Assembly (NCBI RefSeq): GCF_026151205.1
Contig: NC_087074.1
Span: forward strand, 17,274,712 to 17,338,711
Reading direction: 5' to 3'
From: Bolinopsis microptera
Lineage: Eukaryota; Ctenophora; Tentaculata; Lobata; Bolinopsidae
Length of the DNA: 64,000 nt
In this document: positions 29,063-57,323 of the stretch, one piece after another
Layout of the letters: each line of letters begins with the position of its first letter
How positions within the stretch are numbered: position 1 is the stretch's first letter
Notes under the pieces: model-generated
Databases searched by the model: none
Seen by the model: the letters and a program-made list of their open reading frames with translations, nothing else
Told to the model about the DNA's origin: nothing
Translations under genes and position numbers: made by a program

Positions 29063-29604
29063 TGTAAAAATAAAAAAATACACTATCAAATTATATCATT
29101 ATGTCAAACAATTTAGCTCATGTTGAAAGTCAAAATAGTACAAGGTTAAAAGCAAGATTATCAAAAATAATAATTTAGTCTTTAAAATATACCTACCTAA
29201 AGTATTCTTTAAAAATTTAAATTCACAAAAACCTGAACCATGTGCAACAACAACGATAAAAAAGGGCAGCAGCATTCAGGAATGATTAAAAAAGCCGATT
29301 GACTTGACAGCTGTTTTTGTGATTGCAATTTGTTTATACTAGTTTGCAATAATTTAACCAAAGTAATAACATTACGTGCGTTCTCTAGTAGGATTAAATA
29401 GGATTAAACCCGATCCCACACATCTTCATACCGGTACAATGCTTATAATACCCATGCTATACTGTTACTCATGTACATGCTTCATCTACCCCACATACTA
29501 ACAAGTTTAAGTGATTAGTACGACCAGCTTATTGTACTCGAAAATCCATCAAATAGACAAACTAAACATCACAAATTCTTCATAAAACTAACTAATAATT
29601 CAAT
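29063..29604. other. Intergenic, AT-rich
   Basis: No gene or recognisable repeat seen. It contains the 3' flank of the minus-strand SLC10A7-like gene. Confidence 0.5.
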
Positions 29605-31897: not shown

Positions 31898-34050
31898 TTT
31901 TTTTTTTTTTTTTTGAAATAAATTTTCGTGCACATACAGAATGAATGGTTAATAATTTAATATATATGTAGACCAAGGTCTGTGCACGGGATGCTTCCTG
32001 GAAGAATCCAGTTCTTTTAGCGGGGCACCCTACCTAAAGCCAAATTGAGATATAATAATCATATTCCTAGAGAAATAATCAGAAATCGAATACCAATCAA
32101 ATAATATGATATATAGGAGTAGTAACCATATTTACTATGCAAAATGCCCCAACCACATAGTGTAAATTTATATAGAATTCAAATTCCATATCATCATTAA
32201 ACCTCAATAGTCAATATAATAGCCCAAGCAAAATTAAATAACTTCTTATATATATATACCTTACTGTCATACTACAAATTAATTAAACATTTGAAATCTG
32301 TTAACCAGAGAATAAATTTCTAAACCTAATGCAAGTGAAATAATTTAGATGCAATAATGAATGCCTAATGTGAGTATCATCTGTCAATGTCCTTGTAAAA
32401 AAGTCTGTAAAAGAGATATGAGTAACTAATATAGAAGAAAAAACAGGAAGTTGTCGTCTGTTGAAAAATAAATAAAATATCTAGAATATAAATTAGAATA
32501 TAAAATAACATTCAGTCAATGTGTCGTTAATAAACTGTACAATTATCAAATGTTAAAACTGGGTGATACAGTCACCAAAAATAAATACTAAGTATAATAA
32601 GTAAATAAATTAAATGTGGTCTATAAAACTACCACTAGGTATAATAGGTCAATAAATTAAAAGTGGTTTATAAAACTACCACTGTGCGAACCCTTCCTCC
32701 AGTTAAAACATGTCAGTCATGTGCAAAATCAATCAAAAAAAGGTAAAAAAAAGGGAAAATCCTTTCGATACATCAATTATATATGCCTCAGATTTAAAAG
32801 AATTAGAAGATACTTAGTTATCGTCGACTATGATTGCAGTGTAAAATTTGTCATATGAATTGTCGACGGTATAATTAGGGTCTGTTGTTATAGATGAGAG
32901 TAGCTGTTTCTTATACGAATCACTTAAGCTTTTAACATCGGGCAGATTTCGTAGATCTGTTGGAACATTATTCCAACATTTTGCCCCCAAGTATTGAAAG
33001 TTTTTATGTGATGTTGATCTATTAACATATAGGTTGCAGCTTTCGCCGCTCCTACTACCTCCTGATATGTAACTAAATTTGTTCATAAAGTTTGTAGGAC
33101 AATTGTCATGGATGATTCTAAACATATAATTTGACAGATGGAGTTGTCGTCTAAGATGGAGTGGTAACCATTTCATGTCTCTATAAACATTAAGGCTGCT
33201 CTCTGTTTGTGGAACGTTGAGAGCTATTTTGGCTACCTTTTTGTACAGAGTGTCAAGTTCAGCAAGTTTTGTCTTGCCAGCTCTACAATAGATCGTGTCT
33301 AAATAATCGAATTGTGGCAACATGAGTGCATTGGCAAACATTTTCCTATATTTAATGGGTAGCAGTGCTTTACTTCTATACATGGCACCAATTCTCTTCA
33401 TGACCTTCTTAATAATATAATCTACATGGCTTTTGAAGTTTAATTTACTATCTAGAATGAGGCCAAGATATTTTGTCTCTTTGCACTCCTTGATTGTGAA
33501 AGTTACCTCATTACATTCAATGGTTAATTCATCATGTTGATCAACAGAATCAAACAATAGGAATTCAGTCTTCGTTTCATTGAGTGATAATTTATTTACA
33601 CTGAGCCATTTAAAGATTGTCATAAGTTCTATTTTCATGTTTATAAATGTGCTTCTGCAGGTTTGATCAAAGAATAGTGCACCATCATCTGCAAATAGAA
33701 AGGGCTTAGATAGGTTACAGGCATAAATGATGTCATTTATGAAGATACTAAATAATATAGGCCCAATGATGCTTCCTTGTGGTACACCACTCAGAACTTC
33801 TAAAAATGAGCTTATTTTGCCATTGATCCTTGTGCATTGATATCTACAAGATAAGAAGTTCTTAAACCAGGTTAAAGCAATGCCACCAATTCCATAATAT
33901 GCCAATTTTTGAAGCAATATTTCATGATTCACTGTGTCAAAGGCCTTCTTAAGATCAAGAAAGATGATTCCTGGTTTATAAGACTTAGATTTACTCATAT
34001 ATATTTCGTCCATCAGATCGTACATCAAATAAGTTGTGGAGTGATTAATT
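31898..34050 (-). mobile_element. 5'-truncated CR1/L2-like non-LTR retrotransposon with poly(A)
   Basis: Minus-strand copy. Its 3' end is marked by a 17-base T run on the + strand (31898-31914), i.e. a poly(A) tail, and its 5' break is inside the RT near 34046. About 900 bp of non-coding 3' sequence separates the stop codon from the tail. Confidence 0.8.
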
Positions 34051-34121
34051 TCGCATATTATATATAGATGACATATTTCGCATATTAATATACGACATAT
34101 TTCGAAGGAAAACCACGACAT
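32814..34121 (-). CDS. Reverse transcriptase, partial, of the CR1/L2-like copy
   Basis: A 435-residue open frame. RT homology begins near residue 26 (NHSTTYL); the first 25 residues come from flanking sequence. Catalytic boxes are LDLKKAFDTVNH and FLFADDGALF, with the SGVPQGSIIGPILFSIFINDI block between them. The C-terminal part KWLPLHLRRQLHL...AKCWNNVPTDLR is also typical. The endonuclease domain is absent. No stop interrupts the RT part, which implies modest age. Confidence 0.85.
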   Translation of the reverse strand: MSWFSFEICRILICEICHLYIICEINHSTTYLMYDLMDEIYMSKSKSYKPGIIFLDLKKAFDTVNHEILLQKLAYYGIGGIALTWFKNFLSCRYQCTRINGKISSFLEVLSGVPQGSIIGPILFSIFINDIIYACNLSKPFLFADDGALFFDQTCRSTFINMKIELMTIFKWLSVNKLSLNETKTEFLLFDSVDQHDELTIECNEVTFTIKECKETKYLGLILDSKLNFKSHVDYIIKKVMKRIGAMYRSKALLPIKYRKMFANALMLPQFDYLDTIYCRAGKTKLAELDTLYKKVAKIALNVPQTESSLNVYRDMKWLPLHLRRQLHLSNYMFRIIHDNCPTNFMNKFSYISGGSRSGESCNLYVNRSTSHKNFQYLGAKCWNNVPTDLRNLPDVKSLSDSYKKQLLSSITTDPNYTVDNSYDKFYTAIIVDDN

Positions 34122-35173
34122 AACAAAATTATTGTTAAATTAAGTTACAAATTAATTTAATTTCAGAAATAGTTGATTACAGAATTCCTTTTTAAAAAAT
34201 TTTTTCGAAAAAATTTCTTGAAAAAATTTTGCGAATATTTTGATATTTTCATGACATCCGAAATCATGACATCCGAAATCTTGACATCATGTCATGATTT
34301 ACAAATATCTGAGAAAGGTGACGCATATTTTTACCTGTATTTTACAGGCAAAACTTGACATGAAAAACGTCCCCGCATATTTGATAAGATGAGCGCATAT
34401 TTGACATGGATCTAAATATCTGACGGGGGATATCATATAAAAAATATCCTTGTGTTTGAAAAATTATATCAAAAAAGTTAAGAATTTTTTAATAAATTTT
34501 TCTAGGACTCGCCTGTAACAGGCTTTGTCCCCCTGGATCGGGCTCTGCCAATTTGGATCATTGTGGGGCCCAAAAATGCCCCATCGGGTGATAAAAACCA
34601 TGACATATTTCACCCAGATATAATAATATACGACATATTTTTAATGATATTGACCTGGGGTAAATAGTGCATTGTAGTAGAGGCTCTTACGGGCATTGTC
34701 TGCTCGATACGCTAGGGACCCCAGATACACCTTACTAGACGTATTTTTGACCGTAGAATCGATTAAAAGTGGTTTTAAGATGATTGGACTGACTTTTTGG
34801 GGGTAAAATTGCAAAAAACCGATTTTTGGGCAAAAATAGGCCAAAAAACCATGTTTTTTGATATTTTGAACAAGTTAATTTTGTTGGCATGTCGGCAAAA
34901 CTTGCATGGAGATAGCTAAAACACAGCCGCACAAGATGATATAAAAATTTGAAAAATCCCTCTATTTTTTTGGGGGTAAAAATCCAAAAAAGTGGTAAAA
35001 ATTTGACTTTTTTTGCTTGAAGTTTGAATAATTTTTTGCAGTTGCATTAAATCAACCCAAAAATAGTCACATCGTGTTTGCCTAAATTTTTCCTTTCCGA
35101 GAAGTACCCACTTCATATACTTTATCGAAGTTTGAATATTGTCACTCCGCAAGCGTTTTTGCCAAATTTTCGA
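34122..35173. other. AT-rich repetitive spacer
   Basis: No gene. It contains several iterated fragments such as cgacatattt and gacatccgaaatc, and long runs of T/A/G (ttttttggccaa-like). Around 34670-34720 the sequence resembles, inverted, 42590-42655 beyond the Copia element, so it is probably built of older dispersed repeats. Confidence 0.5.
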
Positions 35174-35384: not shown

Positions 35385-35400
35385 GTGGTAGCAGGAAGGA
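35385..35400 (+). promoter_or_regulatory. Primer-binding site of the Copia element
   Basis: Directly after the LTR end is gtggtagcaggaagg. The stretch tggtagcag is complementary to the 3' end (CUGCUACCA) of animal initiator-methionine tRNA, the usual primer for Copia-type elements. Confidence 0.7.
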
Positions 35401-35415
35401 ACGATTAGATCAATC

Positions 35416-38400
35416 ATGGGGGAAGACAAAGTCCCTAGGTTAACAGATACAACGTGTTATGGGGATTGGAAGAGAAGGGTTACTGTATGGGAAGTCTCAA
35501 CAAGCACAACTAAGAACAAGAGAGCAGCTACCCTTATAACGTGTATGAGCGGTAGACCAGAGCAGGCTGCTATCCAACTCAAAATCGACGATTTGAAAGG
35601 AGAAGATGGAGTAAAGAAACTGATAGCAGAAATGGACAAACTGTTCCTACCAGACAATACCCAGCAAGTGTTTAACGCTTTGGATGCTTTTTTGGAGTAT
35701 AAAAGACCAGCTGATCTATCTATGGAAGACTACTGCAGGTAGTTTCACTACAAGAAGAAAATAGCAGAACAGATGAGCGACAAGACAGACAGGTTTGATG
35801 ATGGTGTCCTTGGCTATTTCCTACTCAAGAACAGTGGTCTTGAACAGAACAGTATGACCTTAATTAGAGCTACAGTGACTAAGCTCGAGCTCAGTTTGGT
35901 GGAAGGAGCTTTGAAGAGAACGTTTGGAACAGGACTATCAGGTACGCTGATGGGTTCTTCGGGACTGGGAACATCAGCTATGTCGATTAAACAAGAAGTG
36001 ATGTACAATCGACACTCTTCAAGCGAGACTGATCAGTCAGGGGACTGTTCCTCAAGAAATCAAGCATCTACATCGCTCACTAGTTCAGATGAGGCAGAGA
36101 ACGAGACCTTCTACAACAAAGACTCAAAATCGTATGGAAACAGAGGATCATACCATGGTTATAAGGCAGGAAACAGTTTTAGCTCAAGAGGTAACTACAG
36201 AGGTAACCACAGCGGTGATTACAGAGGCAGAGGTAACTACCAAGGGAACTACAGCAACAGAGGAGGCAGATACGGCAGCAGAGGGGGTTCCAGCTTCAGG
36301 GGAAGAGGAAAGTACAGTGTCCAGAACAACCAGCAGAACAACAGGAAGGATCAGAACTTTGTTTGTTTCTACTGTGGGGGTGAAGGACATAAGATTGCAG
36401 ACTGTCCCAAGAGACTAGCTGAGAAGTCTACGCAATACTTCCAGTCCTTTGCTAACGTCCAAAACAGTGAGACTTTCTTGTGCCATAAGACCTATAACGG
36501 TGCCTTGTTGGATTCAGGCGCTAGTGCTACAGTTTGTGGGGAACAGTGGATGACGAAGTTTGAGTATTCACTGACGACTAGGGAGAAGAAACTGGTGCAA
36601 GAAGAGCCGTGTCATCAAGTGTTCAGATTTGGTGACAGTGACCCCATCATATGTACGACGAGGAAGAACATACCCATAACCATCTGTGGGAATGATATCA
36701 TGCTATGGACATACGTTGTGGAGAGTGACGTACCCTTACTCTTGTCCAGAACAACTATGTCAAAGATGGGCTGTCAGATAGATTTCCAGAGGAGCGAAAT
36801 CAAGGTATTTGGACGGACAAAGAAGCTTGTTATAACAGATTCTGGTCACATGATTATCCCATTCGAAGCCAGAAAAGTGATCAAGTGTGATGAACCAGAA
36901 CCAAGCCCAAAGACTAAGCCAGCTTCAACTGATCAAGCATCATACATTGTAGATTTGGAGAATAGTAAAAAGACGGCAGAACATCTACACAAGTATTTTG
37001 CCCACGGATCTGCTAACAAGATCAAAGAAGTTGTGTTAGAGTCAAGCTTGGAAAAGAAGAGCGAAGTGTGCAAAGAGCTTGATCTGATAGAAAAATCTTG
37101 TGATCAATGCCTGAGACACAAGAGTAAGAAGATACCGCATAGAAAAGTTGCTCTACCTGCAGGGAAAGCTTTCAACGAAAGAGTTGCGATGGATCTAAAG
37201 ATGCTTGAGTCTGGGGATACTATTTTGCACATGATCGATTGTGTAACCCGATATGCAATGGCGATCAGTGTAAAGAGCAAAACAGCTACTGAAATACTGG
37301 AGAAAATATTCAGAGTCTGGATCTCAGTATTTGGAAGACCTGGTCAGTTCTTAACTGACAACGGAGGAGAGTTTGTCAATCAAGAGTTTAACGAGATGTG
37401 CCAACTACTTGACATCGTTATCTCCACTAGTCCTGCAGAATCACCTTTCTGTAACGGTATGGTTGAGCGCCATAATGGCATCCTGGGAAAGATGATAGAC
37501 TCAACTATGGGAGACACAGGATGTAGCTTGGAAACTGCGATTTCCTGGTCTGTAAATGCCGAAAACACACTGACTAACGTGCAAGGATTCTCCCCAAGTC
37601 AGCTAGTGTTCGGCTACAATCCTAGCAACAGCAGCTTACTTGATGAAAGACTGAAGCTATCAGTTCTTAAGACTGAAACTACAAGCAAATTGGTAGCTAA
37701 TATGATAAACGCCAGGGATACAGCAAGAAAGAAGTTTGTACAACTTGAGAACACCAGCACCATCAAGAAAGCTCTTACTGAACGTGTGTATGCAGGGAGG
37801 AATAAACAGTATAAGAATGGAGATAATGTTTATTTCAAACGTGAGAAAAGCAAGTCATGGCAAGGACCTGCTGTGGTAGTTGGACAGATTGACAACATAA
37901 TTGTTATCAAGCATGGGGGACTGCTATATCGTGTCCATCCTTGCAAGATAATAGAGAAGCACGAGGCTGACAGTCAGATTAATGGGGATGCAGAAGAAGG
38001 AAAATCTGATCAGTTGGAGGAGCCTGACACAGCAGCTGTCAAACGAATGCTATCAACACTGGATAGTGATGCAGATCCAGATTCTGATAGCAACTATGAC
38101 ATCCTTGAACCCAGTGACTTGGTTCAAGAGCTGGAAGAAGACGAGATTCAAAGACCCTCGGAAGAACAGAGTCAGGTGGGAGTTGGAGGACAAAAACCCT
38201 CTGAAAAGCAGAATCAGACGGGAGTTGGAGTTCCCAGAATGAGCCAGAACGCTGCTAAGCCTAATACAGGAAGTACACCTTCGCAATCCAGCGGATGGAA
38301 GCCTGTGCCAACTTCTAACGGAAAGTTGAAACTGAAGAAAGATGATGTGATACGGTACAAGAATAGTAATGAAGAAGAATGGAAAAATGGTATCATCATC

Positions 38401-38925
38401 GGCAGAGCTGGTAAGGCTACTGGGAAGATGAAGAACGAGTTTAACATCTTGACAGAAGATATAGAAGACCCAGAACCCATACTGCTTGATAAAGTTGAGG
38501 TTGAGGTACAAGGTACCTACCACCTTGTAACGGATGTTGAAAAGGACGACCCAGCTCTCATCAAGGCGAAAGAGGAGGAGATCAAGAGATTTCAAGAATT
38601 CGACGTGTTTGTTGAAGTTAAAGACCATGGACAAACCAGTGTAACGTCTAGGTGGGTCATAACTTCAAAAGGAGATGGAAAGTACAAGACAAGACTAGTT
38701 GCCAGAGGATTCCAAGAAGAACTTAACGGACAGTCCGATGCTCCGACTGTGAATAAAATTAGTAAGAGGCTCATGTTCACAGTTGCTGCATGCCGAAAAT
38801 GGGAAGTAAAGAGTTTAGATGTAACAAGTGCTTTTCTCCAAGCAGATGAACTCGACAGGGAGATTTTTGTCAAACCACCAACTGACATAAGGAGAAAAGG
38901 CATTGTTTGGAAGCTAAAGAAATAG
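35416..38925 (+). pseudogene. Copia gag-pol, first part (gag, protease, integrase, start of RT)
   Basis: One reading frame from ATG 35416, interrupted only by TAG at 35743-35745 in gag. After it come an RG/GY-rich segment and a CCHC zinc knuckle (CFYCGGEGHKIADC, ~36363). Next are the aspartic protease LLDSGASATVCG (~36507), the integrase zinc region with CDQCLRHK, and the integrase core with LTDNGGEFVN and a PFCNGMVERHNG motif carrying the catalytic Glu. The RT start is WVITSKGDGKYKTRLVARGF followed by LDVTSAFLQA. The frame ends at 38925, where the sequence that should encode the conserved YGL region is deleted and the frame shifts. Confidence 0.88.
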
Positions 38926-38932
38926 TGCTAGA

Positions 38933-39347
38933 AGATGGTATCTAACTTTAAGAGATAGACTCATAGAGGCTGGATGTGTTATCTCAGTTCTAGATCAGTC
39001 AGTATTCAGGTACTATGATGAGAGGAATAGTTTGTGTGGTATCATAGTAACCCACGTTGATGATCTACTGTATGCTGGGAACACCAAGTTCCAGAGAGAG
39101 ATTATGAGAAAAGTACTGTCATACTTCAAGATATCAAGAATGAACGGAAAAGATTTCACATACCTTGGATGGTCAATAACTCAAGAAGATGGTTACATAT
39201 CTGTGAATCAGCGAGAATACTGCAAGTCAATTGAACCTGTAACTGTCAACTCAAAATCGCCTAAAGACAGTGAGCGTTTCTTGAATGATTCAGAGAAGAC
39301 CAAATATCAAGAAACATTGGGGAAGTTGTTAATGGTTGTTATGGCTA
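38933..39347 (+). pseudogene. Copia RT, middle part after the frameshift
   Basis: RT resumes in another frame (ARRWYLTLRDRL) and includes the catalytic HVDDLLYAGN box (Copia YVDD-type) near 39053. It is broken by the RTE-like insertion after the target site at 39338-39347. Ten extra bases (39331-39340) next to the insertion point also disturb the frame. Confidence 0.85.
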
Positions 39348-40866
39348 CTCATCCTTCAGCATGTCAGAACTCGACACGGTTCTGAAGTCCGCCAAATCCT
39401 CCAAGTCACCCGGTCTGGATAGCATCCCTCCCTCAGTCTGGAAGCTTCCCCAGCTACGTGAAAACCTCCTCGGATTCTGTAACAAAGCACTCATGGATGG
39501 TGTGATCCCTCAAGCCTGGAAAACGGCCTCAATCATTCCTATCCCCAAAAAGGGTGATCTTACTAATCCAGGAAACTACCGTGGCATTTCACTGGCACCG
39601 GTTGCAGCAAAAGTTTTTAACAAGCTCATCCTCAACCGGATCTACCCATTCATTGATCCCCTCTTGCGGCCAAACCAAAATGGTTTCCGTAGAGGAAGAT
39701 CCACACTCCCACAGGTCCTTGCTCTACGTCGTATACTCGAGGAATGCAAGATCGGAAATCGCTCAGCCGCAATTGTGTTTGTCGATTTTTCGAAAGCGTT
39801 CGACAGCATTAACCGGGATGCCCTTTTCCACATCCTCTCCCTCTACGGTATCCCTGCTCCACTTGTAGATGCTATCAGGCTTCTTTATGACTCATCATTC
39901 TCTCGTGTCCAGACCATCGACGGCCTTACTGACTTTTTTAGGACACTTATTGGAGTTCTCCAAGGGGACACTCTAGCACCCTTTCTCTTCATCATCGTCC
40001 TTGACTATGTCCTCAGAAGCTGCATGGGTGAAGAATTCGGTCTTACCATCGTGCCTAGGAAAAGTCGAAGAGTGCCTGCGGTCAAAATCACAGACCTTGA
40101 CTTTGCTGATGATTTGGCCTTAATGTCAGACACCATAGAGCAAGTCCAACTTCTGCTGACAGACCTTGAAAATGCAGCCGCACAAGTTGGTCTTGCTATG
40201 AATGCTTCTAAGACCGAGTTCATGACCATCAACATCCCCGACACTGTCGACTTACATTCCATCTCAGGCCGCCAGATTAAACAGGTTGATGACTTTAAAT
40301 ACCTCGGCTCTTTCATTGCGGACAGTAGAAAGGATTTCAACACAAGGAAAGGAATGGCCTGGTCAGCCTGTATTAAACTGCAAAAAGTCTGGTCCTCTGG
40401 CATTTCCGAACAACTGAAAGTCAAGTTCTTTAGAGCCTGTGTCGAACCAGTATTGCTCTATGGATCAGAGACATGGACCATAAACAAGCAGCTTGAGAAG
40501 CGCCTCAACGGATGCTACACCCGTCTTTTAATGAAGGCCAAGAACATCTCGTGGAAGAAACATCCAACCCTCAAGCAGATCTATGGCAACCTTCCATCTA
40601 TTGCCTCAGTGGTTGCGTCGAGGCGTTCCAGGTTTGCTGGGCATTGCATGAGAGCTTCTGACCAAGTTATCTCCACTATCCTCCCCTGGCGACTTGCCCA
40701 ATCCGGCCGTGGAAGGAGACCACTCACCTTCCTGGACGTAGTAGCTCGTGACACTGGGCTCCAGTTAGACGACCTTCGAACTGTTATGTGCGATCGAGAC
40801 GTGTGGAGGCAGACAGTGAATGGGATTTCGATTGAGGATCGCCCAAAGTAAAGTAAAAGTAAGTAA
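39348..40866 (+). mobile_element. Nested 5'-truncated RTE-like retrotransposon
   Basis: Inserted into the Copia RT. It is flanked by a perfect 10-bp direct repeat, gttatggcta, at 39338-39347 and 40867-40876, the target-site duplication. The 3' end is the short repetitive tail agtaaaagtaagtaa, as in the other RTE-like copy at 28141. The 5' end is truncated inside ORF2. Confidence 0.92.
39361..40851 (+). CDS. RTE-like reverse transcriptase, intact frame
   Basis: A 496-residue open frame lacking the endonuclease. RT motifs in order: ASIIPIPKKGD, NYRGISLAP, RPNQNGFRRGRST, FVDFSKAFDSI (catalytic Asp), GVLQGDTLAPFLFIIVLDY, LDFADDLALM (catalytic DD), ASKTEFM and FKYLGSFI. Downstream come LLYGSETWT, RRSRFAGHCMRA and a GRGRRP stretch. 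The uninterrupted frame and the perfect duplication show a young insertion. The ATG is internal, since the element is 5'-truncated, so the frame is probably not translated as such. Confidence 0.9.
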   Translation: MSELDTVLKSAKSSKSPGLDSIPPSVWKLPQLRENLLGFCNKALMDGVIPQAWKTASIIPIPKKGDLTNPGNYRGISLAPVAAKVFNKLILNRIYPFIDPLLRPNQNGFRRGRSTLPQVLALRRILEECKIGNRSAAIVFVDFSKAFDSINRDALFHILSLYGIPAPLVDAIRLLYDSSFSRVQTIDGLTDFFRTLIGVLQGDTLAPFLFIIVLDYVLRSCMGEEFGLTIVPRKSRRVPAVKITDLDFADDLALMSDTIEQVQLLLTDLENAAAQVGLAMNASKTEFMTINIPDTVDLHSISGRQIKQVDDFKYLGSFIADSRKDFNTRKGMAWSACIKLQKVWSSGISEQLKVKFFRACVEPVLLYGSETWTINKQLEKRLNGCYTRLLMKAKNISWKKHPTLKQIYGNLPSIASVVASRRSRFAGHCMRASDQVISTILPWRLAQSGRGRRPLTFLDVVARDTGLQLDDLRTVMCDRDVWRQTVNGISIEDRPK

Positions 40867-40876
40867 GTTATGGCTA

Positions 40877-41545
40877 AGTAGTCAAACCAGACCTGACCTC
40901 AGCTATGACACGATGGAACTGTCGACCTACACAAGTTCAGCTAAAGTCAAACACCTCAGTATTCTTAACAAGGTCGTTAAGAAAGTTAACTATGGACCCC
41001 AAGAGATCAAATATACCGAAATGGATATTGATCAAGGTGAACTGCAAGTAATATTCTACTCAGATGCCAGTTTGGGTAACCTGCCCAACAAGATAGACAG
41101 TGGGAGAGGCTATCTAGTCTTTATATCTGATGGAAGGCGAGCTTCACTTGTTGCCTGGTCTAGTAACAAGATCAAGAGGGTAGTTCACTCTGTGTTTGGA
41201 GCAGAAACTTTGGGATGTGTAGATGGTTGTTCAGCAGCCATTTATGTCAGACAACTGATATCAGAGATACTCTACGATGATCCTACAAAGGCAGTCATAC
41301 CTATTGTTGGATATGTGGATTCCAATCAGCTTTACCAACAGGTTACATCTACAAAACAGTGTCTAGACATGAGAATGAGGCTAGACATAGCTGGTATCAG
41401 ACAGACAGTGAAATCAGGAGAAGTTCAAGCTATCAAGTGGATTCCTACTAAAGAGATGCTTGCTGATTGTCTCACAAAGAAGAACGCAGACTGCAGTAAA
41501 CTGAAGATCATATCATATTTTACCTTTAAGTTATTATATTCATAG
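40877..41545 (+). pseudogene. Copia RT end and RNase H
   Basis: After the nested insertion the Copia frame continues with the SSQTRPDLSYD motif at the RT end. RNase H follows: FYSDASLGN (first Asp), FGAETLGCVDG (catalytic Glu), VGYVDSNQLYQQ (Asp), then KEMLADCLTK, ending at the stop at 41543-41545. All RNase H catalytic positions appear present, so the loss of function comes from the upstream lesions. Confidence 0.88.
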
Positions 41546-45349: not shown

Positions 45350-47289
45350 TATATAGTCAAGAATAAGATTAAATTATTTGCAGATGACCTCAAGTTGATT
45401 GATAATGCAGCTAACCACAGCAGTGTTGCTGAAGATATTGTAGAACTGCAGGTCTGGGAGAGTATTTGGCTCTTAAAGTTTAATCCTGCCAAATGTAAAG
45501 TTGTTCATATTAATCTTAATAGCAACCCTAACTTAAATTATTACACGATTTTTACACGATTTTTACACGATTAGAAAATTTATTTGTTATACTGGAATAA
45601 TAACAATTTTAAAATATAAAATAAATCACTTCCCTCTGAAGTAGAACAGATGATGGGAGAGCTTCAAACATGGCGATGGAGGGAAGCGGTGTCTCACCGC
45701 TGGGAGGTAAATTAATACCCGTATCGCGATGGTAAAATTTTATGATATGAGATCTCAAGTAAAAAATAACACAAAAAATAAAAAGTGAATGTTGTCAGTG
45801 TAGTGAAATCGGAGGCAACATTAATAAAGACGTATACACTTAAACCGTTACAATTATAGTCCCCATCTTGTTTTAAATACTCACAATAAAATACACACAA
45901 AAAACACACAAACGTCCCCAAAACATTAACTTCAATTTATATTTCCCTAGTTGAAATTAACTTATTTTATGAAATTGATACATTCGAGAAGATGTCGTGA
46001 TTACATGGTAGCCATCCATGATCCCCATTTAGCCCTAGGTTTTGTATATGAAGCAAATGGTTCTTAAATCTGTTTTTAAATAGTGAAATTGACAAAATAT
46101 GATACGGTACATCATGATCAAGGAGATAATTTAAAATTTTGGATGCATTAAAAACAAAATTACTATTCTTGGTCTTAGACATTGAGAATTTAGGATATAG
46201 AAGTCTGCATGATCTACTTGACTTGCTAAACCGGCGATAAACATCAACAGGAATTTGTTCTTTAAGTAGCCTCATTGCAATACATCCAGTAAAGTATGTA
46301 AATAAGTTAAACAAGGTTAATAATTTCAAACGAAAGAACATTGGTTTCGTATGTTGAAACTTGTGATCAATCTTTATTGTTTTTCTACTCACAATACGAA
46401 TACATTTTTTCTGCAACACAAACAGTTTTTGCAGCAAAGGATGGTGAAAAACAGCACCCCACAGTGGTATACAATACATTAAATATGGTTGAACAAGTGA
46501 AATATATACTTGTCTTAACACTTTGGCTGGTACTATAGAACTTATGGAGTAGAGTGATCCGCAAGATTTTGAAACTTGCGTTATTACATTGGTAATATGA
46601 TCATTCCACGTTAAATTAGAATTAATAATGACTCCCAAAAATTTACACTTATTCACTTGATTAAACTGGTTGTTAAGTATTATTTATTAAATAGTGAAGA
46701 ACTTGAAGTTTCTGATCAGGAAAAAGATTTGGGGGTTATTACCCATAGTTCCCTGCTTTGGAATGAACAGATAAAAGCATGTATTTCCAAGGCAAATCGT
46801 ATGATTTGCTGGATTGTAAGGAATTTGATAATTAGAGAAAAATGTGTAATGATAGCCATCTATAAGGCTTTGATAAGACCTCTTCTAGAGTATTGTGTCC
46901 AATTGTGGAATCCAGTTGCGGCTTATGGAAGTTGGGGGACTGTTTTGGAGCTGGAGAGCGTCCAGAGGCGATTTACCCGTCTGATTGATGAGGTGAGTAC
47001 TCTTCCTTACAGCGGTAGACTGGAAATCCTTAATTTGACAATGCTGGCAGAGCGGCAAATACGTGGGGACCTTATTGAAGCTTTTAAGGTAATTAATGGT
47101 TTGACTGAATATGGTTCAGACTTGTTCAGACAAAGCAGATCAGGTCTTAATCTGGTGTCATCCAATAGATATAGTAAGAGTATGACAAAGGTCAAGAATC
47201 TTCAGTGTTCTTTTCTTCCAGAAGGTTGTTCCTTATTGGAACAAACTCCCTTCAGAGGTAAAGAACTGCTTGACAGTTTTCAGTTTTAA
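45350..47289 (+). pseudogene. CR1-like LINE fragment split by another LINE
   Basis: Left part 45350-45545 carries the RT catalytic box KLFADDLKL and PAKCKVVHINL. Right part (about 46670-47289) continues with EELEVSDQEKDLGVI, NEQIKACISKANRM, PLLEYCVQLWNP and LESVQRRFTRLI to the stop. The two parts belong to consecutive regions of one protein. They are separated by a minus-strand element (about 45546-46665), with similar attatta-type sequence on both sides. Confidence 0.8.
45546..46665 (-). mobile_element. 5'-truncated CR1-like LINE inserted into a + strand LINE
   Basis: Minus-strand copy with a post-RT open frame at 46656-45967 (CKFLGVIINSNLTWNDHI, QPYLMYCIPLWGAV, FVLQKKCIRIV). Its 3' end abuts three copies of ttacacgattt on the + strand (45540-45573), a tandem 3' tail. 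It interrupts the LINE at 45350-47289. Confidence 0.75.
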
Positions 47290-47562
47290 AATTGGATTGG
47301 AAAGTTTGAAAAAGGACATGATTTCTTAATGTATTGTAAAATACATACATAAAATAAATCAATCCTGTCTATGTTGGTCTGTCAGTGTGTCAGTCTATAG
47401 ATTCTTATTATGATTATTTCTATATAGCTATGATATTTCACATCCTTCACGTTGCTCATTATTATACTCTATACTACTCTTCTCTCTCCCAGGTCCTGAG
47501 GCCTGTCTGACGGGACACCACCCCGAACGGTCCACCGGCTGCCCCCGCCTTTTCTCATAATC

Positions 47563-49104
47563 ATGGTACACGATAGATCTCTACGGAATGCTCGTCCTCA
47601 CAAGGCTCCACCCAACGATCCGAATAACAGCCTCTATGACTCACCTCAATCAAGAGTTTCCCTCTTCAAGGAGCAACTGAAGAGTAACACCGAATCTCCT
47701 ACTGTCATACCAGAAAGCCCCATTGATGTTACTGGAGACAAATTCTTTGATGCAGAGTGCCTTGTCCCCAAAACCCCATCAAACCAGGGTACTCCTAGTG
47801 CAAGTGCCAAGAGCACACCTTCTCAAAACAAGAGAACTCCTACCCAAAACAAAAAGAAGTGTCCATGCAAGAAGAGTGACAAAAACTCAACCTACATCAC
47901 CTGCAACAAGTGTCAACAGCAATGGCATAATAGGTGCAGTAATCTACTCGGCCTTTCACCATCAGATATTAAGAAAATGGAACTGTGGGAGTGCCCAAGC
48001 TGTTATGTCTGTCCCGCACTTAGTAAGGTACCTTCATCCCTCTACGCTGACATCCGTTCAACTAAGGAGGTTGTCACTGCATTATGTCTTAGCGAACGCT
48101 CTTCAAACCAGGGGTTGGTTAATGATGATGTCACAGAGAAACTGAACATGCTACAGCAAGAGATAAAAGGCCTCCGTGAGTCTGCCTTCCAGAGAGTTGA
48201 CCAGCCACACCCAGAGAGCACGACCCTGTTGACAGCTGAAGCTGTCACTAGCATCCAAAACAGCCTATTACACCTGACTGAACAAGTCACATCCATGAAG
48301 TCGTCGCTTGGCAACAGAAGCAGCAGCAGCCCTCGGCCTCCACCAAACAGGATGCCACAGCCTAACCATGGTCCTGGTCCCACATCCCCTCCCCTACCTA
48401 ATACTGTCTCTCCACACACAAAGAAACATGTGACACCGTGCAAGCCCTATGAAATGTATGACCCTCTAGCCCTTACACCAGAACTTAAGGAGGAAGTCCA
48501 AGCGTTCATCAGTGGTAACTGTAGCGAATTTACTAGTGTTGGTGAGAACTCTCGTGAAGTAATGTACTTTGGTGACTTCTCGTATAGGTACACTGGCACT
48601 GAGCACCCAGCAAGAGAAATGCCGCACGTGCTGAAGAAGCTTATTGACACAATTGTTCCTAAAATACCTTCTCCAGTGAATGATAGGAATATCAAGATTA
48701 ACTCGTGTCTCATTAGTAAGTATAGCTCTGGTGCTAACCACATTCCAATGCACAGAGATGATGAGCCTGTGATTGATCCCGAATCTCACATCCTTACGAT
48801 CTCACTAGGAGCTGCCCGTACCATGTCCTTCTGCAATAATGATGACAGCCAATCAGAAGATCTCCCCCTTCAGGACAACAGCTTGTTAGTCACAACGAGA
48901 TATGCGCAGGACTTTTGGAAACACGGGATCCTCCCAGACGAGAATGTCTCCACAGAGAGAGTGAGCCTGACCTTTAGACACATTTCTCCTCACTTCATCA
49001 ATTCGACCATCATTCTGGGTGATTCAAACACCTCCAGGATGACATTTGGTGACTCAGTACAGGTACCTTTGGTCGTTGGGTCCCTGGGAAGCGTGTTTTG
49101 GTAG
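47563..49104 (+). CDS. LINE ORF1, first part: PHD finger, coiled coil, AlkB dioxygenase, start of SGNH
   Basis: 513 residues. A C4HC3 PHD finger (C100, C102, C114, C117, H122, C125, C144, C147) is followed by a helical segment (190-250) and a Pro/Ser-rich linker. An AlkB-type 2-oxoglutarate/Fe(II) dioxygenase spans about 330-475: CLISKYSSGANHIPMHRDDE with the iron-binding H397-x-D399, SHILTISLGAARTMSF, distal H454 (WKHGI) and ERVSLTFR with the two 2-oxoglutarate-binding arginines (R466, R472). The SGNH esterase then begins with ILGDSN (catalytic Ser 488). The frame closes at 49104 through a frameshift at about 49060-49085, after which the esterase continues in another frame. PHD plus esterase ORF1 is known in CR1 elements; the AlkB domain is the unusual part. 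Confidence 0.9.
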   Translation: MVHDRSLRNARPHKAPPNDPNNSLYDSPQSRVSLFKEQLKSNTESPTVIPESPIDVTGDKFFDAECLVPKTPSNQGTPSASAKSTPSQNKRTPTQNKKKCPCKKSDKNSTYITCNKCQQQWHNRCSNLLGLSPSDIKKMELWECPSCYVCPALSKVPSSLYADIRSTKEVVTALCLSERSSNQGLVNDDVTEKLNMLQQEIKGLRESAFQRVDQPHPESTTLLTAEAVTSIQNSLLHLTEQVTSMKSSLGNRSSSSPRPPPNRMPQPNHGPGPTSPPLPNTVSPHTKKHVTPCKPYEMYDPLALTPELKEEVQAFISGNCSEFTSVGENSREVMYFGDFSYRYTGTEHPAREMPHVLKKLIDTIVPKIPSPVNDRNIKINSCLISKYSSGANHIPMHRDDEPVIDPESHILTISLGAARTMSFCNNDDSQSEDLPLQDNSLLVTTRYAQDFWKHGILPDENVSTERVSLTFRHISPHFINSTIILGDSNTSRMTFGDSVQVPLVVGSLGSVFW

Positions 49105-49625
49105 GTCACATGGAGGCTCTCCCTGATGCAATTGAGATTGGCCCTTACCGTAATATTGTCATCCATACTGGAATCAACAGTATTAACTCCCGGTCTCATC
49201 CACGATCAGAAGCCTACCTCCTCCATGTCCTCGAATCCAAGTGCAGAGACATTACTGAAACCTACCCCAAATCCAAAATCCACTTGTCAATGTTACTTCC
49301 AACTAGACTAAACTCTCTAAATAGAAAAGTTGAAAGCTTTAATCGGGGCATCCTCGATGTGTCTTATCAGCAAAGAAACATTTTTATTATTGATAACTCT
49401 ATTTTTGGTCGCCAGCTCTCTGATGAGTATGGCAGATGGGATATTGCTGCAAATGGCCCTCTTACCTCAGATATTGTCCACCTTGGTAAAAGTGGTATCC
49501 GTAAATTTGCTGCGAATATTAAGGAATCTGTAGCTGGCAGAAGGAGTAGCCAGTCTAGAGCACGTTTTAACACCAGTCAGGGGAACTTCGGCGGAGCGGT
49601 AGAGGGTGGTAGGCGCCCACCATAA
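49084..49625 (+). pseudogene. LINE ORF1, SGNH esterase remainder after a frameshift
   Basis: Continues the SGNH/GDSL hydrolase begun in the previous frame: PGKRVLVGHMEALPD, block III IHTGINSIN, and the C-terminal catalytic dyad block DIVHL (Asp and His). The C-terminus is basic (RRSSQSRARF), suiting nucleic-acid binding. The stop TAA at 49623-49625 is separated from the ORF2 ATG by two bases, an arrangement compatible with termination-reinitiation. Confidence 0.85.
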
Positions 49626-49627
49626 TT

Positions 49628-51847
49628 ATGATGATCAAACAACCACAAATTACTAAGAATGTTTGCAAGGGATGCAATAAATTTATCTCAACACACCACA
49701 AAATTTTGAACTGTAGCTCCTGTGGAACAGTTACTCACTCTAAATGTGCCAAAAATCTCTTCCAATACACCCACACCAATGATAGCTGGCAATGCTACAT
49801 CTGCATCGCCAGCTTACCACAACGGTACTGCCCATTTGCTTCTGCACTTATACGTGACAAACATGACCCAGTCCACCTTGATGAAATTGAAGATGTTTCT
49901 GAAATCAATGAAATCCATAAAAGCTGTAAAAATTATGATCATAAAAGCTTTAAGAACCTCATAAAGCTGTATCATAGAAATGGGCAGAACCTTACTGGTA
50001 TTTTTAACAATATTGATGGAAATGCTGCAAATTTTGATACATTTGTCACAGAAATCTCACAGTACAGTCATCCACTCTCGTTTATTGGCTTGGCTGAGAC
50101 AAATATTGATGCAAACCTCAAAGACCTGTATAGGATACCCGGTTATCTCTCTGAATACACCAATAAATTACGTGACAAATCTAAAGGTAGTGGAGTGGGA
50201 ATTTACATCAATGAGTCACTTACTTACACCCGTATTGACAAACTATGTATGTGTACCCCTAACCTTGAATCAGTGTTTGTCTCCATAACAAATGTTGGCA
50301 GGCCCCAAACAGTTGGCGTCCTATACAGACCACCTGGTGGATCTGACAAAGATGCCCTACACGAATTTGAGAGCCTTCTTAATCAGGTTCCTGATAGGAA
50401 CGTTATCCTGCTTGGAGATTTCAACTTTAATCTATTTAATAAAGGCTCTGCCAGCTTTGAAAACATTTTATATGGAAATAACTTCATCCCACTTATATCA
50501 CTGGCAACGCACCATAAACCAGGCTGTGTCCCATCGCTTATTGACAATATTCTGACAAACTCCACTGACAATATTGTGTCAGCTGGACTACTGGATACCA
50601 GGGTTTCGCATCACTCTCCAATTTTCTGTATTCTCGAATGTAGCATGCCTGAAGAACCAGAACTTGACCCTTGTAAACCAAAATACGACTACTGTGAATC
50701 TAATATGACCAAGTTCTTAGAAGATATTCAAACAAATTTTTGTGGGCAGGTGTGCTACAACGTAGAAAACTTTGAAATTTTTGCAAATAAGATAAAACTT
50801 TTGATCGAAGAAAACTTTTTAATTGAATCTGAATCGTTCAAAAAGTCAAAAAGAAATATGATTGCAAACCCTTGGATCACACCAGGGATCATTGCATCAG
50901 TGAAAAAGAAAGAATATCTTTACAAGCAGTGGAAGAGTACAATTAAGGAACCCAACCCTCTTGGAGACTCTGATCTATACTTAACCTATAGTAAATTCCG
51001 TCGACAGTTAAAATACATTATCAGATCTGCCAAGAAATTGTACTATTGCAGAAAATTCTCAAAAGTCTCAGGTAATATGAAGCAAACATGGGCACTGATC
51101 AATGAACTGAGGGGAAAAACAAAAACTGGAATAAAGGCCTCGTTCAAAATAGATGGTAGTTTAGTAAAAGACAAGCGTGTCATATCGAATGGCTTTAACA
51201 TGTTCTTCTCTTCCATTGCAGGTAAACTTAATGCGAAGCTCTGCTCCTCCAAACCAATAAGTCGTGACACAGCTTGCCAGAGGCCCCTTAATTATAAGAA
51301 CTACTTTAACAAAAGAGTTACCAACAGTATGTTCTTAAACCCCTGTGATTCTGAGGAAATCGAAAAAATTGTTAAAACCTTCCAGGGTGACAAGGCTAGT
51401 GACATATCAATAGCTGTTCTTAAGAAATGTTGCACTACAATCTCTAAACACCTAGCTGGTTTCCTAAACTCATTCATGAAGCTGGGTCTATTTCCAAATA
51501 TTCTCAAAATAGGTAAGGTCACCCCCGTATTTAAGAAAGGAGACCCACAGCTGTTTGATAACTACAGGCCTATATCCATTCTACCTATCTTTGGTAAGAT
51601 ATTTGAAAAAGTAATTTACTGCCGACTATATAGCTTCTTTACTTCACATATGGTCATATACGATAAACAGTTTGGATTCAGATCCAACCACTCAACGGCA
51701 CATGCCATCAATTACTCCATTGACCACATTCTTAAAAACCTAGAAAGTAAGAATCATGTAATTGGCATATTCATTGACTTAAGCAAAGCGTTTGACACAA
51801 TCGACCACAGAAAATTACTTGTCAAACTTGAACACTATGCTGCATAA
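49628..51847 (+). CDS. LINE ORF2, first part: PHD-like finger, endonuclease, RT start
   Basis: 739 residues. A second C4HC3 finger lies at the N-terminus (C13, C16, C29, C32, H37, C40, C56, C59). The apurinic-type endonuclease follows: FIGLAETN, GVGIYINE, GVLYRPPGG, LLGDFNFNL, LIDNILTN and the SHHSPI active-site His. The RT starts with KVTPVFKKGD, NYRPISILPIFGKIFEK, KQFGFRSNHST and the catalytic IDLSKAFDTIDH. It stops at 51845-51847 because of what looks like a 2-base insertion; RT resumes in another frame just downstream. Confidence 0.92.
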   Translation: MMIKQPQITKNVCKGCNKFISTHHKILNCSSCGTVTHSKCAKNLFQYTHTNDSWQCYICIASLPQRYCPFASALIRDKHDPVHLDEIEDVSEINEIHKSCKNYDHKSFKNLIKLYHRNGQNLTGIFNNIDGNAANFDTFVTEISQYSHPLSFIGLAETNIDANLKDLYRIPGYLSEYTNKLRDKSKGSGVGIYINESLTYTRIDKLCMCTPNLESVFVSITNVGRPQTVGVLYRPPGGSDKDALHEFESLLNQVPDRNVILLGDFNFNLFNKGSASFENILYGNNFIPLISLATHHKPGCVPSLIDNILTNSTDNIVSAGLLDTRVSHHSPIFCILECSMPEEPELDPCKPKYDYCESNMTKFLEDIQTNFCGQVCYNVENFEIFANKIKLLIEENFLIESESFKKSKRNMIANPWITPGIIASVKKKEYLYKQWKSTIKEPNPLGDSDLYLTYSKFRRQLKYIIRSAKKLYYCRKFSKVSGNMKQTWALINELRGKTKTGIKASFKIDGSLVKDKRVISNGFNMFFSSIAGKLNAKLCSSKPISRDTACQRPLNYKNYFNKRVTNSMFLNPCDSEEIEKIVKTFQGDKASDISIAVLKKCCTTISKHLAGFLNSFMKLGLFPNILKIGKVTPVFKKGDPQLFDNYRPISILPIFGKIFEKVIYCRLYSFFTSHMVIYDKQFGFRSNHSTAHAINYSIDHILKNLESKNHVIGIFIDLSKAFDTIDHRKLLVKLEHYAA

Positions 51848-53076
51848 GAGGGCCCTGTCTTGACCTAATTGAAAGCTATTTGTGTAACCGACAGCAGTAT
51901 GTTGATTTCCAAAATACACACTCTGATCACTGCAAAATTGAATATGGGGTACCACAGGGATCAGTTCTAGGCCCTCTCCTCTTCTTACTCTACATTAATG
52001 ACATTACCAACTCTAGCAAACTTGGACACTTCATACTGTTTGCAGATGACACGAACATATTTGTTGCTGGAAAAACTGAACAAGAAGCCTATTTGAATGC
52101 TAATAAAGTACTTGAATCTGTAAATGACTATATGGAATCTAACTTGCTGCACATTAACCAAAGCAAATCGGTCTACATGTTATTCAGACCTGGCCGGTAC
52201 TCGTCCTGTGCACGTGCTCGTGAATATGGCTCTGAGAACTCACTCACGTTATCAGGCAACACGCTTACACGAGTAGATAAAGTGAGATTCCTTGGTGTTA
52301 TCATAGACCATGAACTATCCTGGGAACCCCAACTAGATAACATAAAAAGTAAACTAACTACAAGTATAGCTATAATTAAACGTATTATGAAGTTTATTCC
52401 AGAAACAGAGTACCATAAGCTGTATGACTCCTTATTCAAGTCTCATATGAGCTACTGTATCAGTAGCTGGGGTGGTGTCACACCTTATAGACTATCTAAA
52501 CTGTTCTCCATCCAAAAAAGATGTGTACGCCTTCTATTTGGAAGCAAACCAAGCTTTGACCGGGCAGAGTATTATGAAACATGTGCACGTGCAAGACCAT
52601 ACAGTGAACACATCGCAAAAAGGAGCTTTGCTTTGGAAAACACTAAGCCAATATTCAATACCGAGAAAATCATGTCAATCCACAACCTGTACACCCAACA
52701 TATATCCACTGAACTGTTTAAAATCTTGAAACTGCATCAACCTATCTCTCTGACAAGTTTATTCCAAACAAGTTCCAGAGCATGTAGCCAAACTATGCGG
52801 GTCCCCCGACACAAACTTGAAATTTCTAAACACAATTTTGTCTTCAAAGGTACGACTATATGGAACAGTTTGGTTGATAAAATATTCGACAAATGCACTC
52901 CTAATGAAAACAATGTCATGGTCCCTGGCTCTAGTAAATTTTCCGACCTTTCCTCCCCCATCTCAATTATCAAGAGCCGTATCAAAAAGCTCTTACTTGA
53001 AACCCAGCAATTGACAACACCTGGGCGTGAAATTGAGTGGCTCCCCCTAAATAGCTGGGGCATTGAACCAGCTTAG
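51848..53076 (+). pseudogene. LINE ORF2, RT remainder after a frameshift
   Basis: Continues with RGPCLDLIESYL, EYGVPQGSVLGPLLFLLYIND and the catalytic FILFADDTNIF, then LLHINQSKS, VRFLGVIIDHELSW, FKSHMSYCISSWGG and IQKRCVRLLFG, to the stop at 53074-53076. With the preceding frame it forms a full-length CR1-type RT. Apart from one lesion per ORF the copy is complete, so it is young. Confidence 0.9.
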
Positions 53077-54067
53077 TCAATCAGCATCCCATCCCTTGCA
53101 TACAACTAATTACAAAAGCGCTAATTATACCTGTTTCAAAAGCATCCTGTCTGGAAGTTCCCTGACTGCCGTGTGAATCTTTGGATCTATTTTTGGATCT
53201 ATTTTTATATTGATATGATTTTTATATACCTATATATTCCTCGCATAATTTCCATGTCCGCCTGAACAAACCTGGCACCATCAAATCTTACTCTAGAAAC
53301 CCCAGAACTCATCAAGCCTAGTCTGAATTCAAAACTAGTTGACCAGCTACGTACAGTTTCCTGGACAGCTGGAACCTTTTGGGCCATGCACAAGCCAATA
53401 GCATGTATGGTCCTGCAGTGGGGTCTCCTTGTCCTTGGATCTGTGTTTTGATCCGTCTTTTCTTAAAATTTTCCATTTGTGTCACTTAGAATCACCTTTT
53501 AAAATGTTAATCGACACCACTGGTCCTAGTTAAATTTAGCCATGGCACGACTACTCGAACGTAACAGTTAAATAGGTGTGACATACTATTATATTCTTAT
53601 AATTATATCATATGAATTGATTGCACTGCTAATAAATAAAATACTTTGTTTTACTAAAATACTTTGTTTTACTAAATGACTTTCATTTTTGGAATGTTTC
53701 GAAAGAAGTTTTAACAAGAATTGAAGGTACCAATTATGTCAGTAATAAGAAAAAACACAATAATTATCTTTGGTTTCATCCTTATGTAGCAAATCTTTAC
53801 TCCACTGGAAAGTATGAATAAATGTTTAATGTTGTTGTTATTCATGATTAATATTTGATAAATTATTACCTTTAAATTTGATGGAGAAATAGTTACTGTA
53901 TATTTTTCCATGTAGTGCGATGATACTTTGTAGACATTGGTGATGATTTTATGTCATAATTTTTTCCCGATCCATGACTCAAAGTGCCGAAGGCACAAAA
54001 GAGTCAAGGACAAGGGTTAGCGAACAAGGTTTTTTTTGTATCAGAATAAAACAAATATTCAGAATAA
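53077..54067. other. LINE 3' UTR and flank
   Basis: The first ~600 bp are the LINE 3' UTR and tail. Beyond it is AT-rich sequence with a perfect compound stem-loop at 53976-54005 (gactc-aaa-gtgcc-gaa-ggcac-aaaa-gagtc). Confidence 0.55.
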
Positions 54068-55888: not shown

Positions 55889-56577
55889 CCCCAGTGACAT
55901 AAAGTGATGAATCTAAGAATCTAATTCCTAGCCATATTAATTTCCATAGCCACGCCGACTAATTTTTGTCAACAAAATTATTAAATCAACTTTAAAATAG
56001 TCGCTCTCGGTTGTTACACACTGTAACGCCGCGCACTGTACTTTAATTCTATATTTATCCGAGAAGATGTTCAAATCGAGCGCAAATGCCAGATTCCTGC
56101 AGATTCCTAGTTCTTGCGCTTAACTTGCGCGTTACCAAATAATCCAAGATATTCCTGTCAGGATCCAAGATTTTCCTACTACCAGTATGGCCTGGTAGTA
56201 TGGACTGTTTGGTAGTATGGTAGTATGGTAGTTGCAGGAACGCGCGAAGACCTATATGTAAATATTACATTAGCGTACATGGAATCGTGGCCTAGTTGGT
56301 AAATCCGTCGGTACTATATTGGCAGATCGCGAGTTCGAGACCCGGAAAGGAAATCTTTCACAATCTTTTGGCAATTATGAATAACTATACTAATGAATTA
56401 ATAACTATACTAATGAATAACTAAACCTCTGTAATATAACTAGCAAAGTAAAATGAAATCGTTATCCGGCCGCGGAGCGGCCGAAAAATTTATGGTAGTC
56501 GTTTTAAAAATATATGGTAGCCGTTTTTTCTTTCCAGACTGGATTCCTAGTCCCTTTTTAAATTTATGTCACTGGGG
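55889..56577. mobile_element. Non-autonomous DNA transposon with 15-bp TIRs and 6-bp TSD
   Basis: 689 bp bordered by perfect 15-bp inverted repeats (ccccagtgacataaa ... tttatgtcactgggg) and flanked by the direct repeat tcataa at 55883-55888 and 56578-56583. It sits inside a LINE reading frame. No transposase is encoded. A tRNA-like Pol III promoter lies inside. Confidence 0.88.
56281..56350 (+). ncRNA. tRNA-like Pol III promoter (A and B boxes) inside the DNA transposon
   Basis: The A box tggcctagttgg (56288-56299) fits TRGYNNARNNGG exactly, and the B box gttcgagac (56333-56341) fits GWTCRANNC, spaced like a tRNA gene. The acceptor and anticodon stems do not pair well, so this is a tRNA-derived (SINE-type) remnant rather than a functional tRNA. 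Confidence 0.45.
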
Positions 56578-57323
56578 TCATAACTTTATCAAGGTATGCT
56601 TTTTTGTCACCAAACATGATACGAACACACTTTTTCTGGGCTACAAATAGTGGTTGAAGTTTATTATTACTTGCACCTCCCCAAACGGTAATACCATAAG
56701 ATAGGTGACTTTCAAACAGTGTGTGGTACAGGTCCTTATGGATTGATGATGGAATTTTATCCTTAATCATGTACAGCCTCCCAGAACAGGACGAGAGTTT
56801 TCTAACTAGTTTGTCTCTATAGGGATTGAAAGTTAGGCCTTTGTCGACAATTACTCCCAGGAATTTCGTTTCCTGCACCTTTGAGAGAGGTAGGCCGTTG
56901 AGGTAAAGTCTATTTTCGATTAAAAAAGATTGCTCATCAAGATTTCTTTTAGCTGTATTGAATTCTATATAGCAACTTTTCTTGGTGTGTATATGGTAGC
57001 TTGCGACCGTGCGTACGTGCCCTCGCCCCCAGTTATCGCCGTGCCCACGTTTCTACCTGCGCAAAGTTATTTTGCGCGATGTAGTTTGTGCGTAATGCGT
57101 ATTCCTTACGGTCTGCTCTCTAAGATCAGCCTGCTTATCCCTTTTACCGTGCTTAAATTCTAGTTTCTATAGATAAAATTCAAGAGCATGTTTACCAATC
57201 TTAATCTGCTTAACTACTCAGAATGATAGGAAACTTAATTGAGGGTTAAATGAGAGGTATGTACCTGTTAAAAGTTCAAGAAACTTCCTAGGATACCCCT
57301 TCAGAGCATACTGTAAACATAGT

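Follow-up and report, generated by a model that had tools for sequence, protein, structure and literature searches.

An AlkB-type dioxygenase domain in ORF1 of many comb-jelly LINEs and in Helitrons

Among the closest described systems are two kinds of retroelement. Esterase-type (type IV) proteins of the first open reading frame (ORF1p) are known from CR1/L2 long interspersed nuclear elements (LINEs) such as zebrafish ZfL2-1, in which a coiled coil precedes an SGNH esterase and ORF2 encodes the endonuclease (EN) and reverse transcriptase (RT) (PMC3905857, PMC4120745). A survey that sorted 448 Jockey-superfamily elements into five ORF1 types found esterase ORF1s confined to vertebrate groups within that superfamily (PMC4120745), and such ORF1s are also reported in CR1, RTEX and Penelope elements of chordates, cnidarians and sponges (PMC3905857). 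Ty3/Gypsy elements of the orchid Phalaenopsis are retroelements with an AlkB-type protein of their own, and demethylase activity in vitro has been described for the orchid protein (PMC9289625). Here we analyze a 64,000-nucleotide stretch of the comb jelly Bolinopsis microptera (NC_087074.1, positions 17,274,712 to 17,338,711; hereafter the window). It holds a LINE that resembles the type IV elements but carries an AlkB domain of ~160 amino acids (aa) between coiled coil and SGNH, in a host of the phylum Ctenophora. The domain folds like ALKBH2/ALKBH3, retains its catalytic residues in nearly all of the distinct copies compared and occurs in many LINE families as well as in Helitrons.

A sequence-only reading had recognized the AlkB domain by its motif residues, and both the identification and the numbering of H397, D399, H454, R466 and R472 proved correct.

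48577..48978, + strand: AlkB (2-oxoglutarate (2OG)–Fe(II) dioxygenase), ORF1 residues 339-472; PF13532 E 2.4e-21; AlphaFold predicted local distance difference test score (pLDDT) 91.3; ALKBH2/3 fold
48751..48765, + strand: H397-x-D399-x-E401, iron ligands and Glu; each invariant in 111/111 distinct sequences
48922..48924, + strand: H454, distal iron ligand; 111/111
48958..48978, + strand: R466-x-S-x-T-x-R472, 2OG-binding motif; R466 in 110/111, R472 in 111/111

The Pfam 2OG-FeII_Oxy_2 model scores 77.3 bits on the window ORF1 against a cut-off of 31.2, and the closest solved structures by sequence are ALKBH2 (5.1e-11) and then ALKBH3 (3.1e-6). The AlphaFold model of 48421-49011 contains the AlkB-type double-stranded beta-helix, with ALKBH2 as its nearest Foldseek match. 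Together, the Pfam, Protein Data Bank (PDB) sequence and fold matches rule out a chance match or mis-call.

Conservation was assessed over 111 distinct AlkB sequences no shorter than 140 aa, of which 27 come from this genome and 84 are database proteins; the divergent locus L040 (L-numbers denote loci fetched from the same genome) is not among them. The metal- and cofactor-binding residues, claimed to be intact from the window copy, are all kept there, and the iron triad and both 2OG-site arginines are retained together in 110/111 sequences, the sole exception being L009, which has lost the first Arg. In the N-x-Y motif, the Asn position holds N in 91, D in 19 and T in 1, and the Tyr position holds Y in 102 and F in 9. 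The idea that the domain is retained for binding nucleic acid, its catalysis having become irrelevant, could draw on the lack of other RNA-binding domains in esterase ORF1ps (PMC3905857) but is hard to credit against this retention of the catalytic site.

The fold and the invariant Glu also bear on which mark might be removed. One rival reading is that the domain strips N6-methyladenosine (m6A) from element RNA, or N6-methyladenine from element DNA, and so keeps host readers or silencing from acting. ALKBH5 and FTO do have the same fold, but the window model lies nearer to ALKBH2/3 than to FTO in structure comparison. E401, which we take to be the counterpart of E. coli AlkB E136, is invariant in 111/111 sequences, and a Glu at this position disfavors m6A. 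The Phalaenopsis Gypsy protein, which is ALKBH5-like and a demethylase in vitro, is described as an m6A RNA demethylase (PMC9289625). In human cells, by contrast, m6A helps L1 and overexpressed ALKBH5 represses L1 about 4-fold (PMC7873242), making m6A removal the less likely reading; overall, we regard it as unlikely.

The AlkB domain is widespread among the LINEs of this genome. An AlkB query yielded 775 candidate matches, of which 150 were scored, and 145 of these (the window included) lack an internal stop, a proportion biased toward good copies by ranking on score. The Pfam AlkB model gave at least 151 matches over cut-off among 587 candidates, the three best being host-type genes. Across 20 representative loci taken from the match list, AlkB frames span 403–779 aa, with one of 1163; EN–RT matches follow AlkB in 19 of the 20 (L009 is the exception), fragmented at some loci and split by an insertion at L020; and RT or EN–RT identity to the window element runs from about 22% to 54%. 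PF13532 exceeded its cut-off in all 17 family ORF1s scanned. Within the window element's own family, four copies (L001, L005, L006 and L007) each encode AlkB and SGNH in a single unbroken frame of 706-707 aa. These frames and the many genomic matches rule out a one-off capture or assembly chimera, the outcome that the proposed check of other copies was meant to expose. Additional AlkB families lie on several contigs, with frames of 697, 699, 455 and 478 aa.

Sister LINE families free of AlkB were sought among four further RT families (L036–L039), picked because no AlkB match showed near them among the matches listed. In this small sample all four proved to carry the domain, one in full and three in part; among the latter, L036 scores 18.3 bits against PF13532 and L039 gives no match. 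Outside the studied element, no AlkB match was found in the window, including at the LINE RT at 39289–40848. That RT and L020B, in which no AlkB was seen, belong to another RT group. L020B is a single-ORF LINE (L020 oriented 4925-8523; 988-aa EN-RT with a weak DUF6451 match) inserted in ORF2 of L020. All 16 database hits bearing an organism name are comb jellies, 14 Mnemiopsis and 2 Bolinopsis. One of them, P0067 of Mnemiopsis leidyi, is a gene model fusing a partial AlkB-SGNH with C2H2 zinc fingers, and is either mis-joined or a domesticated copy.

In the RT tree, 21 rows are set apart with support of 100/99 from L033, L020B and the window RT at 39289–40848, and inner groups are supported at 100/99, 99/97 and 100/99; 20 of these rows come from AlkB-bearing loci and the other is a window fragment without AlkB. 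L033 and L040 (C3:18319600-18325200) are AlkB–SGNH LINEs with other RTs, that of L040 being quite different; the L033 ORF1 (contig C1) matches B. microptera LOC134811101 (P0071) at 100% identity across 88% of the ORF1 length. We dropped the view of the 21 rows as a sole clade, as the L040 RT fell among them, on a long branch, in a later tree. An RT fragment in the window (32817-34139, − strand) is 99% identical over 294 columns to the RT of the AlkB LINE L017, and no AlkB was found with it. L017 and L024 (also L021) have almost identical ORF2s (dS 0.042) and deeply diverged ORF1s (AlkB dS 1.1), and ORF1 has, to judge from these alignments, been swapped between LINE families in L017/L024.

To gauge selection, the ratio of nonsynonymous to synonymous substitution (dN/dS, Nei–Gojobori) was computed for the AlkB segment in 12 pairs, which share sequences and whose p values are uncorrected. 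The ratio is low in L017–L024 (0.12, p 9e-25), L017–L021 (0.13, 1e-22), L011–L013 (0.18, 3e-7), L010–L013 (0.21, 1e-5), L014–L016 (0.24, 0.006), L001–L007 (0.16, 0.013) and L017–L018 (0.20, 0.04); a second run with the domain cut differently gave 0.09–0.27. AlkB is thus under purifying selection where divergence suffices to tell, and the selection that was to be looked for across copies shows in seven of the 12 pairs and not in five, the Helitron pair included.

The same domain occurs in Helitrons. In L035 (956-10000, − strand), one 3015-aa frame contains PF14214 (Helitron_like_N; 4.7e-22), PIF1 (8.1e-22) and AlkB (7.4e-21), placing the Rep and PIF1 helicase of a Helitron in one protein. In L032 (3483-9899), SGNH (26.9 bits, under cut-off), AlkB and Helitron_like_N share a frame that is continued by PIF1 in the overlapping L034 (1-3846), and DUF6570 is also found in AlkB-bearing Rep-helicase frames. 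Ten near-full genomic matches to the Helitron AlkB, the query included, show 71–100% identity, and two loci were read; four of six database hits combine PF14214, PIF1, AlkB, SGNH and DUF6570. L040 is the closest sampled relative of the Helitron AlkB (40% match) and forms a clade with the Helitron AlkBs (100/99; long branches). Placing the Helitron AlkB outside the LINEs was rejected by the approximately unbiased test (p-AU 0.0027) once L040, whose 40% match was already known, had been added, and was not rejected before (p-AU 0.39).

Host-type genes, of which 1.4–2 kb each was read, comprise the ALKBH2-like L029 and the ALKBH3-like L030 and L031 (best PDB match of L030: ALKBH3, 1.9e-39). A branch separates the element AlkBs from host ALKBH2/3 with support of 95/80, 88/80 and 92/90 in three trees, only 95/80 reaching the starred support level. 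The host-type genes are thus distinct from every element AlkB, and on this tree evidence the domain was probably captured long ago from a gene of ALKBH2/3 type. An insert that precedes P-R-K in ALKBH2, and that probes double-stranded DNA, is missing from every one of the 17 rows of main LINEs and Helitrons; the host L029 has it, and L033 shows a short segment at that place.

More tentatively, AlkB–SGNH might be a transferable cassette common to at least three RT lineages of comb-jelly LINEs and to Helitrons, crossing between class I and class II. If so, the common need would point to a host defense, or to some chemical agent, that puts methyl groups on the single strands of mobile elements, and AlkB would be the elements' counter-measure. 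The occurrence in Helitrons as well would be a rare instance of a single enzyme module used by RNA- and DNA-based movers alike. Some AlkB homologs act on proteins. Because AlkB and SGNH travel paired, Helitrons included, and the ZfL2-1 esterase binds phospholipids (PMC3905857), one might imagine the two acting together on protein or lipid-linked substrates rather than nucleic acid, which we find very unlikely given that the nearest folds are nucleic-acid repair enzymes and the base-recognition Glu is kept.

We think it reasonably probable, from sequence and model, that the AlkB domain of ORF1p demethylates element RNA or complementary DNA (cDNA) in cis, at marks of the 1-methyladenosine/3-methylcytidine (m1A/m3C) type. 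ORF1p would package the element RNA and hold the Fe(II)/2OG demethylase beside RNA and cDNA; there it could clear m1A/m3C-type methyl groups from the Watson–Crick face of bases. Methyl groups of this kind, which arise chiefly in single strands, block reverse transcription, so that their removal would leave the template legible or erase a mark set by the host. Helitrons move as single-stranded DNA without reverse transcription; that they carry the same domain suggests a need tied to single-stranded nucleic acid and not just to reverse transcription. The m1A/m3C marks on RNA or single-stranded DNA are favored by the invariant Glu, weakly by the missing insert, and by the domain's presence in movers that handle single strands. 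In ARM-seq, AlkB enzymes reportedly clear methyl groups before reverse transcription for RNA sequencing, a suggestive parallel. The earlier proposal that the element carries its own RNA/DNA demethylase to shield or unmask its transcript or cDNA is partly supported, by fold, residues and selection, and the demethylation itself we infer.

Several observations weigh against this reading. The position preceding the Glu, AlkB D135, lacks conservation among the 111 sequences (D in 47, N in 34, S in 17 and other residues in 13); the choice of substrate may therefore be variable, or other than that of ALKBH2/3. The 111 sequences are kin, and their invariance does not count as 111 independent events; all were found with queries or profiles of the studied family, and most database ones, which come from contigs, are only putative element proteins. 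The missing insert is a weak pointer because the host ALKBH3-like L031 lacks it too. Five of the 12 dN/dS pairs miss p 0.05: L021-L024 (0.44, p 0.13), L023-L028 (0.36, p 0.12), L001-L006 (0.18, p 0.07), L001-L008 (0.27, p 0.11) and the Helitron pair L032-L035 (0.87, p 0.64). Finally, most LINEs seem to do without AlkB, since 'alkb' occurs 0 times in the text of PMC4120745 on its 448 elements.

A neighboring possibility is DNA repair rather than RNA unmasking, with AlkB mending alkylated bases in cDNA or the new insert, such as the 3-methylcytosine that DNA methyltransferases (DNMTs) leave behind. The nearest Foldseek match is ALKBH2, and Helitrons move as DNA; set against this, the insert with which ALKBH2 probes double strands is missing. 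ALKBH2 has been surveyed alongside DNMTs as an indicator that a DNA-methylation system is functional (PMC11294593), and Mnemiopsis has CG methylation, raised at transposon-rich promoters in loops but low overall at 6.8% (PMC12221973). Sequence alone does not separate this possibility from demethylation of element RNA or cDNA, and we rate it as rather improbable, a little below m6A removal.

A retrotransposon-borne nucleic-acid demethylase would tie base methylation directly to the fitness of a selfish element. If it is active, template methylation would limit LINEs in an animal, and ORF1 would have a role beyond RNA packaging; the domain is small, well modeled and found in intact ORFs, which makes the proposal testable.

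The remaining features of the window copy are as follows.

47358..53675, + strand: full-length LINE copy; ends mapped by where other genomic copies stop matching
47563..49104, + strand: ORF1 reading frame, 513 aa, an open reading frame that stops within SGNH
47860..48003, + strand: PHD-like zinc finger, ORF1 residues 100-147; Pfam PF00628 E 0.0042, under cut-off
49012..49529, + strand: SGNH esterase, split across two frames here; profile match in frame 49053-49622
49628..51847, + strand: ORF2 first frame, with zinc finger, apurinic-type endonuclease and N-terminal RT part; PF03372 1e-7, PF00078 4.7e-15
51880..53076, + strand: ORF2 second frame, with remaining RT and C-terminus; PF00078 3.2e-16
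53640..53675, + strand: 3' tail, two copies of an 18-base unit, read from sequence; coincides with the mapped 3' end

Copy comparison extends the element beyond the limits first assigned to it (47563..53076), to 47358 and about 53675. Three of seven other fetched same-family copies (L005, L006 and L007) stop matching at 47358 and L008 at 47354, the window element itself (L002) being left out. Matches of fetched copies begin variably, from 47354 to 48315, and share the 3' end; 33 of 39 other copies, scored out of 1509 candidates, stop at 53670-53677 (query 1071-1078). The family is young, since 38 of these 39 3' copies are 97–100% identical to the window and one is 96%. No target-site duplication of at least 6 bases was found near the element ends. 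A LINE RT fragment (46615-47286, + strand) stops just before the 5' end.

In these LINEs, ORF1 encodes a PHD-like finger, a coiled coil or both, followed by AlkB and then the SGNH esterase. The view that the window copy joins PHD finger, AlkB and the GDSN start of SGNH in one frame holds for the SGNH start; the PHD match is sub-threshold (17.5 bits versus a cut-off of 24), as in 6 of 17 family ORF1s scanned (L009, L010, L013, L020, L023 and L028), and SGNH then shifts frame, the AlkB frame closing at 49101 and SGNH going on in frame 49053-49622. As in type IV ORF1s, SGNH has its Ser (103/104 rows, 1 gap), GxN (104/104) and His (102/104, 2 gaps). A profile of 16 SGNH domains from the studied and related families matches the ZfL2-1 ORF1p esterase (4c1b, 6.1e-10), where a single-sequence search against PDB gave weak, unrelated matches only. 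The model of the L022 ORF1 has a helix at 55-96 and an alpha/beta domain at 460-645, at the SGNH position; a fold search with this whole ORF1 returned only AlkB-type chains among the best 50 matches listed, and none for the esterase part. ORF2 of the window copy is split over two frames (49613-51844 and 51832-53073), and its zinc finger (PF14446, 1.7e-4) is under its cut-off. Its EN and RT mark the element as a LINE, with uninterrupted ORF2 frames of 1147 and 1201 aa in the relatives L010 and L016; Pfam gave no integrase match in the window ORF1 or ORF2 (long terminal repeats (LTRs) were not looked for).

Elsewhere in the window, a Copia-type LTR element (35392-41542; RVT_2, integrase and zinc knuckle in 35743-38922) is apparently interrupted by the LINE RT at 39289-40848, and further LINE RT fragments lie at 28183-29082, 45970-46683 and 56567-57052 (all − strand). 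An uninterrupted 1944-aa frame (17961-23792, −) has a C-terminal Rap_GAP domain. Frames with thyroglobulin type-1 repeats (2-1171, +), an AMP-binding enzyme (13520-15154, −), a V-SNARE (27089-27760, −) and an SBF-like transporter (29608-30438, −) are probably ordinary host genes.

The literature searched, with preprints, most subscription papers and Repbase outside its scope and an earlier mention therefore possible, yielded no AlkB in a LINE or Helitron. The element AlkBs share with cellular ALKBH2 and ALKBH3 the fold and the H-x-D-x-E...H...R...R pattern, but they branch apart, and those of main LINEs and Helitrons lack the ALKBH2 insert. They resemble the AlkBs of plant RNA viruses and giant viruses in lying within a selfish element's protein of similar fold (E 1.1e-14 to 3e-10 for the 50 viral Foldseek matches listed, a likeness by fold), whereas the replication machinery differs. 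The Phalaenopsis Gypsy element is an LTR element with its ALKBH5-like, m6A-type protein in a separate ORF, found in one plant lineage (PMC9289625); the elements studied here, by contrast, are non-LTR, carry an ALKBH2/3-like AlkB inside ORF1 and comprise many families.

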